From: a virus
Length of the DNA: 47,964 nucleotides
Reading direction: 5' to 3' (one strand)
Virus record (IMG/VR): IMGVR_UViG_3300042541_000663
Span: 1-47,964 of that record
Below the pieces are notes generated by a model. That model was not told the origin of the DNA and did no database searches. It saw only the letters and a list, made by a program, of their open reading frames with translations. Of the stretch, positions 31,404 through 33,613 are shown piece by piece. Each line of letters opens with the position of its first letter. Position 1 is the stretch's first letter. The position numbers and the translations under genes are program-made.

Positions 31404-31694
31404 ATGAGTAAATATGCCAGAAGAGTGGATGACAACCAGAATGAGATAGTAGCAGCTTTGAGAGCGTGTGGTGCTACTGTCAGGATCATTAGCCAAGGTG
31501 GTGGTATCCCTGACCTGCTGGTAGGTTATAGAAAGCACACTATCTTGATTGAGGTTAAGGATGGGGCCAAGGTGCCCAGCGCACAGAAACTAACTGAGGC
31601 GGAGCAGGAATTCTTTGATACTTGGCGTGGTGGTACAGTAGTTATCATTAATAGTGTGGATAAAGCTTTAGCCCTCCTCAAGACTTTGCTATAA
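31404..31694 (+). CDS. VRR-NUC-type nuclease (96 aa)
   Basis: R-R-V-D-D-N-Q at 6-12, G-G-G-I-P-D37-L-L-V-G, then I-L-I-E50-V-K52-D: the PD-(D/E)XK core of small VRR-NUC or Holliday-junction-resolvase-like proteins. It then has L-T-E-A-E-Q-E-F-F-D-T-W-R-G, typical of this family. Divergent from the early operon and followed by a strong terminator, so it is probably a one-gene transcript. No Shine-Dalgarno is evident; it might be translated from a leaderless or weak site. Confidence 0.75.
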   Translation: MSKYARRVDDNQNEIVAALRACGATVRIISQGGGIPDLLVGYRKHTILIEVKDGAKVPSAQKLTEAEQEFFDTWRGGTVVIINSVDKALALLKTLL

Positions 31695-31762
31695 TTACAT
31701 CTCTTCTTGGTAGAAGAACCTGTAGTGTCCTCCTGGCTTGTATGGTCGCTGGACTGTAGTAC

Positions 31763-31816: not shown

Positions 31817-31973
31817 GAGCGGTATTAAACAGGACCATACCGGCATTAAGAGCGGTATCATAAACCCTATAGGTGATGGGTTTCAGAGTAAATACCGGTA
31901 TGAGGAGCGGTATTAAGAGCGGTGGGAAAGTGGGATTCCCAGTGTTTCCCAGATTCCCAGTGTTTCCCACTTT
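31817..31973. repeat. Iteron-like repeat cluster, candidate replication origin
   Basis: Four copies of GAGCGGT (31817, 31850, 31905, 31917), three continuing as GAGCGGTAT, with inverted ATACCGG forms at 31837 and within the palindrome ATACCGGTAT at 31892-31901. Then two directly adjacent 18-bp copies of GATTCCCAGTGTTTCCCA (31934-31951, 31952-31969), flanked by inverted AAAGTGGGA (31927-31935) / TCCCACTTT (31965-31973). Non-coding, next to replication genes. Origin function is inferred from repeat architecture. Confidence 0.5.
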
Positions 31974-31994
31974 GGGCGCAAGACGTACCTTAAC

Positions 31995-32096
31995 TTAACA
32001 GTTCCACTTATTTAAGTTAACAGTTATATAGAAGCCATATAGATGCTAGCCTCTACCACTATAATTAGAGATAACAGTTCTGCCAGTTAGAGATAA
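31995..32096. repeat. Two pairs of short direct repeats, each at 22-bp spacing
   Basis: TTAACAGTT at 31995 and 32017, with a third near-copy ATAACAGTT at 32071; TTAGAGATAA at 32065 and 32087. Both pairs recur at exactly 22 bp, about two helical turns, so proteins bound to them would face the same side. AT-rich. It may be the unwinding part of the origin candidate or an operator array. Confidence 0.4.
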
Positions 32097-32132: not shown

Positions 32133-32161
32133 TTGACATTCCAATACAGTCCAGATATTCT
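32133..32161 (+). promoter_or_regulatory. Rightward promoter of the non-coding region
   Basis: TTGACA (32133-32138), 17-nt spacer, TATTCT (32156-32161). Perfect -35 and a 4/6 -10 at ideal spacing, with no protein-coding gene following for almost 500 bp. Expected transcription start near 32168, directly before the structured region. Confidence 0.6.
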
Positions 32162-32167
32162 GCGCTT

Positions 32168-32600
32168 GTCAGAGTTGGCACTCTGGTTAATTGCCCGGTT
32201 AGACCCCAGTGAATTTAGGTGGGGCATGTGTGGTCTAGTTCCATTCTTAACCGGGTGGTGTTAACTAGGTTGCCCATGCCAAGGGCCATGCCCCTCCTAA
32301 GTACATTGGGGTTTTTCTTTGGGCGCTCTGTCCGTACTGATCACGTTAGCTATGGGCCTGAATGGGCTGCTATCAAGAATACACAGGCAAGGGTACACCC
32401 CCTTTAATGCCGCGTAGCCTGTCAGAGAGGGACTACACAAAATGCAGGGTCAAGTGGTGAGACAAGCCCAGCGTTGATGAATCTCTGCCTTAGGGAATAC
32501 TAGGATACCTCAGTTGGTATCTGGGTAAGTGCTAGCCCACAGCTATCACCCTTGGGGACCTATAGAATAAATTGGCAATAGATGGTATAGCAGAGAATAT
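32168..32600 (+). ncRNA. Candidate structured non-coding RNA region
   Basis: About 430 bp without a credible gene, downstream of a promoter. Helices found by eye: CAGAG/CTCTG (32170/32181); CCCGGTTA/TAACCGGG (32194/32248) enclosing GACC/GGTC and CCA/TGG; ACAGGC/GCCTGT (32383/32417) enclosing AAGGG/CCCTT; and TCTCTGC/GCAGAGA (32482/32590) enclosing GATACC/GGTATC (32504/32516) and TGGG/CCCA (32522/32536). Nested, closed multi-branch helices are more than expected by chance. A T-run terminator at 32291-32316 may end a shorter ~150-nt form. Not matched to any RNA class I know. Confidence 0.4.
32291..32320 (+). terminator. Possible weak terminator within the structured region
   Basis: CCCC (32291-32294) pairs with GGGG (32308-32311), followed by TTTTTCTTT. 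Short stem, good T tract. Upstream GCCC (32272) and GGGC (32283) can pair with each other or, alternatively, GGGC can pair with GCCC at 32290, so it could switch between ON and OFF forms. Confidence 0.4.
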
Positions 32601-32605
32601 AAGTA

Positions 32606-32634
32606 TTGACAGCTACCTGGAATAGGAATAAGGT
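32606..32634 (+). promoter_or_regulatory. Rightward promoter for the ParB-helicase-primase genes
   Basis: TTGACA (32606-32611), 17-nt spacer, TAAGGT (32629-32634). Perfect -35, weak -10. It lies ~20 nt before the 32655 gene and directly after the last helix of the structured region. An activator might make up for the poor -10. Confidence 0.5.
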
Positions 32635-32821: not shown

Positions 32822-33613
32822 ATGCACATAGGCCTAAACACAATACGCATTGACTGCAACACGCAATCCAGAGAATCCATCAGCCCAGACGTTGTAGGCC
32901 AGTACGCTGAGGATATGCAGGGAGGTAACATCTTCCCATCAGTCATAGTCTACTATGATGGCACGTTCTACTACTTGGTAGATGGGCATCACAGATTCCA
33001 CGCTGCCATGAAGATAGGCGCACCTAGTCTGGAGTGTACAGTTATTGAGGGTACGCTGCGTGAGGCTGTCCTGTTTTCAATGACGGTTAACAGTAAGCAT
33101 GGCCTACCCAGAAGCAGCGCAGATAAGCGGTATTGCATTCTGCGTATGCTGGATGATATTGAATGGGGTGAATACAGCAATAACCACATAGCCAAGCTGT
33201 GCCATGTTGGTCATGTATTAGTAGGTACAATCCGAGCAGAGCTTGGGAAGATTGCCCCAGCGGTAAGAAAGCATGTTAGAGATGGGAAGGAAGTTCTGCA
33301 GAAAGTCAGGGAGAAGAAGGAAAGGATTGTTGCCCCTGCTGAGGATACAGAGACAGAGATGGAACTTCTAAGGGCTTCAGTTGTGGACCTGATGGATGAT
33401 AACGCCGCCCTCAAGGATAAGATTTCTATTGGCTTGTCTGGAGAATCTGATGAAGAGAAGGCCAATTTAACAGAAAGAATGAAGAGTCTGGAGGCTGAGA
33501 ATGTATTGCTCAAAGTAGAAGTTAGGGCAATTACTAAATCACGCGATGCATACCAGACAGAAAATGCTGAGCTGATGAAGCAAATTGCAAGAATGAAAAA
33601 GTCCTCCCATTGA
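32822..33613 (+). CDS. ParB/Srx-fold DNA-binding protein (263 aa)
   Basis: ParB N-terminal domain with L-V-D-G-H-H-R-F-H-A-A at 52-62 (the D-G-x-H-R signature), preceded by I-F-P-S-V-I-V-Y-Y-D-G. A helical region at ~100-150 (N-N-H-I-A-K-L-C-H-V-G) could be the DNA-recognition helix-turn-helix. Residues ~165-260 are a coiled coil. ParB-type proteins bind palindromic sites and some cut DNA. A perfect palindrome lies 24 nt after the stop. Role in replication, segregation or regulation is inferred. Confidence 0.7.
   Translation: MHIGLNTIRIDCNTQSRESISPDVVGQYAEDMQGGNIFPSVIVYYDGTFYYLVDGHHRFHAAMKIGAPSLECTVIEGTLREAVLFSMTVNSKHGLPRSSADKRYCILRMLDDIEWGEYSNNHIAKLCHVGHVLVGTIRAELGKIAPAVRKHVRDGKEVLQKVREKKERIVAPAEDTETEMELLRASVVDLMDDNAALKDKISIGLSGESDEEKANLTERMKSLEAENVLLKVEVRAITKSRDAYQTENAELMKQIARMKKSSH

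Follow-up and report, generated by a model that had tools for sequence, protein, structure and literature searches.

GOLLD RNAs are phage encoded, with a conserved 3' region, a less conserved 5' region, and a linker that may hold tRNAs, and are found near tRNA islands, and ROOL RNAs of phages and prophages have multiple pseudoknots, quaternary kissing loops, a variable linker, and no protein partner (PMC12286853). The window analyzed here is a 47,964-nucleotide stretch of an IMG/VR virus record (IMGVR_UViG_3300042541_000663) with tail-fiber, structural, terminase, portal, Sak, exonuclease, ParB-like, helicase, and primase genes. At 32133-32563 (plus strand) it contains what is, by sequence comparison, a predicted noncoding RNA gene of two modules, a 5' module (32160-32320) and a 3' core (~32329-32563). 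The first-pass annotation had suggested that the phage has a structured RNA gene, possibly of a new class, and conservation and covariation over more than 150 viral loci strongly support this, the class being absent from Rfam 15.

The overall plan is most like those of GOLLD and ROOL, without membership of either by covariance model (CM). It resembles GOLLD (RF02032) in being phage borne, in having a conserved 3' and a variable 5' region and a linker with tRNA-like inserts, and in its elaborate fold, but the window RNA is about half as long (~400 versus 659 to over 800 nt) and the 3' modules are exchangeable; the GOLLD CM matches 0 of 17 records at E values up to 10. Many pseudoknots and a variable linker are shared with ROOL, whereas size and arrangement differ, and Rfam gives no ROOL or OLE match in the window or its relatives. 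The closest known relation is the Betaproteobacteria-1 RNA (RF02932), by position and without detectable sequence likeness. The family described here is a large, well-defined one that Rfam 15 lacks, and it sets an orphan RNA already known, Betaproteobacteria-1, within a broader scheme in which one 5' module precedes interchangeable 3' RNA bodies.

Genomic setting and the 5' module

The RNA region lies between a small endonuclease-like gene and a 52-aa ORF with a ParB-like gene (Table 1). As proposed in the first pass, about 430 bp within 32133-32600 are without a credible gene, the sole ORF being 62 aa with a GTG start; the TTGACA-17-TATTCT promoter is present in the sequence, as is the next one after the RNA region (TTGACA at 32606, with a spacing of 17 to TAAGGT). 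High-scoring sigma70-like hexamer pairs are enriched 5' of the core among homologues (32 of 93 loci versus 28 of 465 shuffles), and a new promoter often lies directly 3' of it. No Rfam 15 family matches the window, even at E values up to 10, in agreement with the earlier view that this is not tmRNA, RNase P, or 6S RNA, and neither ARAGORN nor Rfam gives a tRNA or tmRNA match.

The RNA region is conserved in two close relatives (L002 and L003), both of which have rearranged DNA 5' of the promoter. Both relatives have ~700 bp extra, with a 216-aa ORF, at window positions 31693-31754, which the window lacks. At 31818-32090, in the interval from the upstream terminator to the RNA promoter, the window has repeats (AGCGGTATTA; TTCCCAGTGTTTCCCA; GTTAACAGTT/AGAGATAA) that resemble protein-binding sites and are partly absent from L003.

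Table 1. Features of the RNA gene and its neighbors in the window
Feature	Position	Strand	Basis or remark
Small endonuclease-like gene	31404-31694		upstream neighbor of RNA region
Sigma70-type promoter TTGACA-17-TATTCT	32133..32161	+	sequence; hexamers 32133-32138 and 32156-32161; belongs to predicted RNA gene
Hairpin 1, CAGAGT/ACTCTG	32170..32185	+	sequence; conserved in L002, L003
Pseudoknot strand A, CCCGGTTA	32194..32201	+	8-bp match to 32248-32255
Long terminator-like hairpin	32204..32311 (arms 32204-32228 and 32287-32311)	+	sequence; equivalents in most homologues
Pseudoknot strand A', TAACCGGG, within terminator-like hairpin	32248..32255	+	pairs with strand A
U-tract TTTTTCTTT between 5' module and core	32312..32320	+	equivalent junction is 3' module exchange site in other phages
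3' core, conserved family	32329..32563	+	nhmmer, covariance model R1
P1	32333-32335/32343-32345	+	covariation, columns 14-16/24-26
P1 loop pseudoknot	32338-32341 with 32372-32375	+	covariation, columns 20-22/53-55
P2 hairpin	32354-32358/32365-32370	+	100% paired, 63 sequences
P2 loop contacts	G32360-C32384, U32363-A32383, G32364-C32382	+	one contact GC to CG in 18
P3	32386-32388/32409-32411	+	98.8% paired; two-sided changes at 4/4 pairs family-wide
P4	32414-32420/32429-32436	+	100% paired; two-sided changes at 5/7 pairs, 6/7 in independent sample
Pseudoknot P5	CAGAGA 32423-32428 with TCTCTG 32482-32487	+	two-sided changes at 5/6 pairs
P6 hairpin	32442-32449/32467-32474	+	two-sided changes at 7/7 pairs
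Pseudoknot P7	GGUGA 32456-32460 with UCACC 32546-32550	+	AU48/GC46 at columns 142/244
Variable hairpin P8, GATACC/GGTATC	32504..32521	+	covariation, columns 187-194/204-211
52-aa ORF and ParB-like gene	32822-33613		downstream neighbors of RNA region

Three nested helices had been drawn by eye in this region, and one of them, CCCGGTTA/TAACCGGG in the 5' module, is real and covaries, being changed on both sides to CCCGATTA/TAATCGGG in L002 and L003; it is not nested, however, and forms a pseudoknot into a hairpin loop. In other phages the core usually has as its 5' neighbor a long hairpin rich in GC, with a T run after it; at 69 of 92 loci a run of at least four T's lies within 50 nt 5' of the core. 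Cognate pseudoknot strands match over at least 7 bp at 67 of 87 loci, as against ~11% of strands swapped between loci, a control that includes relatives. In alignment A4 (33 loci), which covers one 5' module type, pairing in the pseudoknot and stem reaches 99.7%, a percentage biased upward by the 7-nt match required for entry, although only two loci were dropped for that reason; two-sided changes occur at 12 of 30 pairs.

At some loci the modules are separated by inserts (a protein gene, a tRNA-like element, or other structured-looking domains), and at others there is only a gene directly 5' of the core. The tRNA-like insert, ~150-200 nt 5' of the core in L202 and L101, has a 7-bp acceptor-like stem and a T-arm-like UCUGGUUCGAYUCCAGA, and ARAGORN makes no call. 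A further element, GAATGCGYAGRCTGATRCGC ... GCCGGAGATCAGCACCGGCC with a long closing helix, recurs 5' of the core in L098, L138, and L125 and is also present in Acidovorax phage AP1 (L239:4690-5680, minus strand), where a TTGACA-17-TACAGT promoter precedes the unannotated gap of ~960 bp that contains it.

Covariation and pseudoknots of the 3' core

The 3' core is, on comparative evidence, a predicted RNA of ~235 nt with several pseudoknots. Its helices, including the non-nested ones, were defined by the most strongly coupled columns among 95 non-redundant sequences, and this covariation-based structure replaces a nested RNAalifold solution. Absence of covariation in homologues had been named in the first pass as grounds against a structured RNA, and covariation is found: in an alignment of 63 sequences (A2), two-sided changes occur at 26 of 32 core pairs, and 98.0% of cells are paired, compared with 30-42% when the partners are slid. 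Parts of P5 had been fixed by the first search pattern, and the test was therefore rerun on 30 loci chosen on the P2 motif only, which are 96.7% paired (26-44% slid); the two-sided changes reported for P5 come from a sample not selected on P5, which is also absent from the CM. G-U and U-G pairs outnumber A-C and C-A by 134 to 11 in A2 (twelve to one) and by 60 to 15 in A3, which points to RNA of the plus strand rather than to DNA or the opposite strand.

Pseudoknot P7 connects the loop of P6 with the 3' end and takes the forms GGUGAUAG/CUAUCACC, GGGAGG/CCUCCC, and GGUGAAG/CUUCACC in other members, and the outermost pair of P3 is mismatched in the window itself. The other two helices drawn by eye give way to different pairings in the comparative data, with the GCCT of GCCTGT (originally paired with ACAGGC) falling inside P4 and the TCTCTG of TCTCTGC (originally paired with GCAGAGA) forming P5. 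The RNA region as a whole folds better than shuffles (z -2.92), and the core alone (32328-32472) folds no better than shuffles (z +0.49); most of the energy signal can thus be traced to the 5' hairpin. Folding energy would be misleading if used by itself, and the evidence for the RNA is covariation.

Distribution and position among phages

Homologues are present in well over 150 viral contigs, including divergent ones reached via loci of the neighboring helicase gene. A first pattern, drawn from the P4/P5/P6 region, gives at least 120 matches in viral contigs, all confirmed by the core HMM, which finds at least 149 loci in all, some being the same contig twice; a second, using only the P2 motif, gives 50 stretches, 41 of them new, and covariance model R1 matches all 41. 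In the window itself, nhmmer matches 32329-32561 (E 2.6e-55), and R1 scores 131.1 bits at 32343-32490, with pseudoknots P5 and P7 both present.

The first pattern has five matches in 84,980 species genomes, with one clear member (L207), on a 5.5-kb contig of a Burkholderiales bin; L206 (19.5 bits), from the same scan, is pattern selected and probably a chance match. Because viral contigs are rich in matches and the species genomes hold a single clear member, the family is essentially one of phages, mostly on environmental contigs. The Burkholderiales bin, together with the Betaproteobacteria-1 relatives, hints at betaproteobacterial hosts. A weak R1 match (27 bits) in a Burkholderiales genome (L237:1501-1634, minus strand), lies directly after a Toprim primase-like gene and before a terminator, and it may represent a divergent relative in a prophage. 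The plasmids searched have no match to the core, and the named phages searched have only partial, divergent cases; the core was not found in the region read of Methylophilales phage MEP301, which has the closest named capsid, and R1 matches nothing in the gaps of Paracoccus phage Shpa and Pseudomonas phage PS-1. In one public phage record (MW202484; L213:4934-5293), the core is annotated as a hypothetical protein, which is probably a misannotation. We found no paper describing the core or the module exchange in the literature searched, which included few subscription papers, and an earlier description is possible.

The core is present in exactly one copy in all 30 core-containing records tested, but its position differs, lying before ParB-like, helicase, and primase genes, between scaffold and major capsid genes in T7-like phages, or elsewhere. 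No neighboring gene family is common to all loci among the gene clusters compared, and only 4 of the 23 helicase-related phage records searched have a strong R1 match, with many helicase relatives lacking the core. A replication primer or origin RNA, or a pRNA-like packaging RNA, would fit with its frequent location beside ParB-like, helicase, and primase or scaffold and capsid genes, but the shifts between these gene classes, and the absence of the core from many relatives that have the same replication genes, leave such a role highly improbable.

HEARO and the IscB omegaRNA (RF02033) are comparable in being compact, pseudoknotted RNAs, at ~200 nt, and there is an apparent resemblance around CGUUAGCUGA...CCCGAGAA, which could suggest a guide-type RNA separated from its nuclease. 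However, R1 has no credible match at 14 IscB loci or at a HEARO locus (L211), the HEARO CM has no match at the window or the loci scanned, and no nuclease is a recurrent neighbor in the gene clusters examined, such that a guide RNA is largely refuted and scarcely credible.

Exchange of 3' modules and candidate roles

In phage MW202545 (L214), a 5' module of the same kind leads directly into a Betaproteobacteria-1 RNA (100.1 bits), and Acidovorax phage AP1 carries such an RNA (93.4 bits) directly after its primase gene. The window has a 5' module type of its own, with the same topology as the type preceding Betaproteobacteria-1, and the 3' end of the L214 RNA is similar in style (UCCACCUCUGGG versus UCCACCCUUGGGG). 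The Rfam model is 120 nt and lacks the 5' module, and the location after a shared 5' module, at L214 and at one class (class 1) of the exchange loci described below, is a feature proposed here that lies outside the Rfam definition. The Betaproteobacteria-1 CM (gathering threshold 49.4 bits) has no match in the window at E values up to 10, none in 13 other loci at E values up to 5, and none in 39 records including that of the window; R1 conversely does not recognize L214. Betaproteobacteria-1 was also considered as a replacement for the core in the helicase relatives without one, and was not found there (39 records). In MW202545, six tRNA genes (L214:4306-4881) directly precede the 5' module with its Betaproteobacteria-1 RNA.

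Exchange of the 3' module with other RNAs, which the first-pass annotation had not foreseen, is seen when the search pattern is placed inside one 5' module type, other than that of the window, giving 57 stretches, 46 of them new. The R1 core follows this 5' module in only 11 of the 46, and elsewhere its place is taken by a second type, a Betaproteobacteria-1-like module, a type with only P1 and its pseudoknot in common, and further types. In one pair of phages (L303/L317), the 5' modules are 99% identical and the upstream 1.1 kb 81% identical, and the 3' modules share 0.61 identity, compared with 0.60 for shuffled sequences; the same holds for L314/L317 and L291/L318, the three pairs having 94-99% identity in the 5' module, 81-86% in the upstream 1.1 kb, and 0.60-0.61 in the 3' module, versus 0.60 shuffled. 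More generally, phages whose 5' modules are 93-99% identical, with homologous DNA upstream, have 3' modules whose likeness does not exceed that of shuffled sequence. There are 75 such exchange pairs at a 5' identity of at least 0.80. The predicted RNA body is thus replaced as a whole, at the U-tract junction, between related phages, although among the alternative 3' modules a structured RNA is established for Betaproteobacteria-1 only. These natural swaps provide matched phage pairs that differ mainly in the RNA, and because of this the purpose of large phage RNAs becomes testable.

We favor, while giving it only an even chance of being right, a trans-acting phage RNA gene, an effector cassette in which the 5' module is common and the 3' body is exchanged in the manner of a specificity determinant. 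Host RNA polymerase would transcribe the RNA from its own promoter, with some transcripts ending at the terminator-like hairpin to give a ~150-nt RNA and others reading through to give one of ~400 nt; the 3' module would fold compactly and act in trans, its target belonging to either host or phage, and the 5' module would be a common handle for expression, stability, or assembly. Because 3' modules exchange at a single locus, the effector may be under antagonistic coevolution, as in counter-defense, host takeover, or exclusion of other phages. Counting against this reading, a canonical terminator-like hairpin precedes the core, making co-transcription of the two modules uncertain, and no terminator follows the core. 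The inserts between the modules at some loci, the loci with only a gene directly 5' of the core, and the many helicase relatives without a core also weigh against it, and the exchange data come from a single 5' module type, different from that of the window.

The same arrangement could reflect a cis-acting leader, with the 5' hairpin as an attenuator and the core controlling the downstream genes by processive antitermination or as another regulatory element. Consistent with this are a pseudoknot strand able to compete with the terminator-like hairpin, the many flanking genes on the same strand, and the lack of a terminator after the core, but the downstream genes are wholly different between phages (an early replication operon, major capsid, and others), the core often runs directly into a new promoter, there is one copy per genome, and the 3' module is swapped while the upstream DNA stays homologous, and we therefore consider a leader unlikely. 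An RNA-only multimer similar to GOLLD and ROOL, in which kissing loops would form a homo-oligomer or cage with the variable inter-module linker inside, is quite unlikely. It draws on the match to their published plan (PMC12286853), on a linker in which an ORF, a tRNA-like element, or another insert may lie, on the six tRNA genes adjoining one related locus, and on a covarying loop-loop helix, although covariation does not distinguish intra- from intermolecular kissing; the shorter RNA and the lack of GOLLD, ROOL, and OLE matches noted above weigh against it, and 3' exchange is harder to explain if one particle needs both modules.

The trans-acting reading can be extended, tentatively and with the balance of probability against it, to a single-locus RNA effector system of environmental phages, in which a standard module of promoter and kissing hairpin would present one of several unrelated, intricately folded RNA bodies that phages exchange. 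If so, it would be an RNA counterpart of swappable protein effectors or counter-defense genes.

At least three further uncatalogued, RNA-like 3' modules follow the same 5' module in the exchange loci (L288-L333; for example, L294:596-810, L289:3105-3330, and L322:1990-2265). Representatives of these have no Rfam match, and single-sequence folding gives no structure signal for the remaining 3' modules, or for the core. One of them contains a T-loop-like GGUUCAAUUC stretch.
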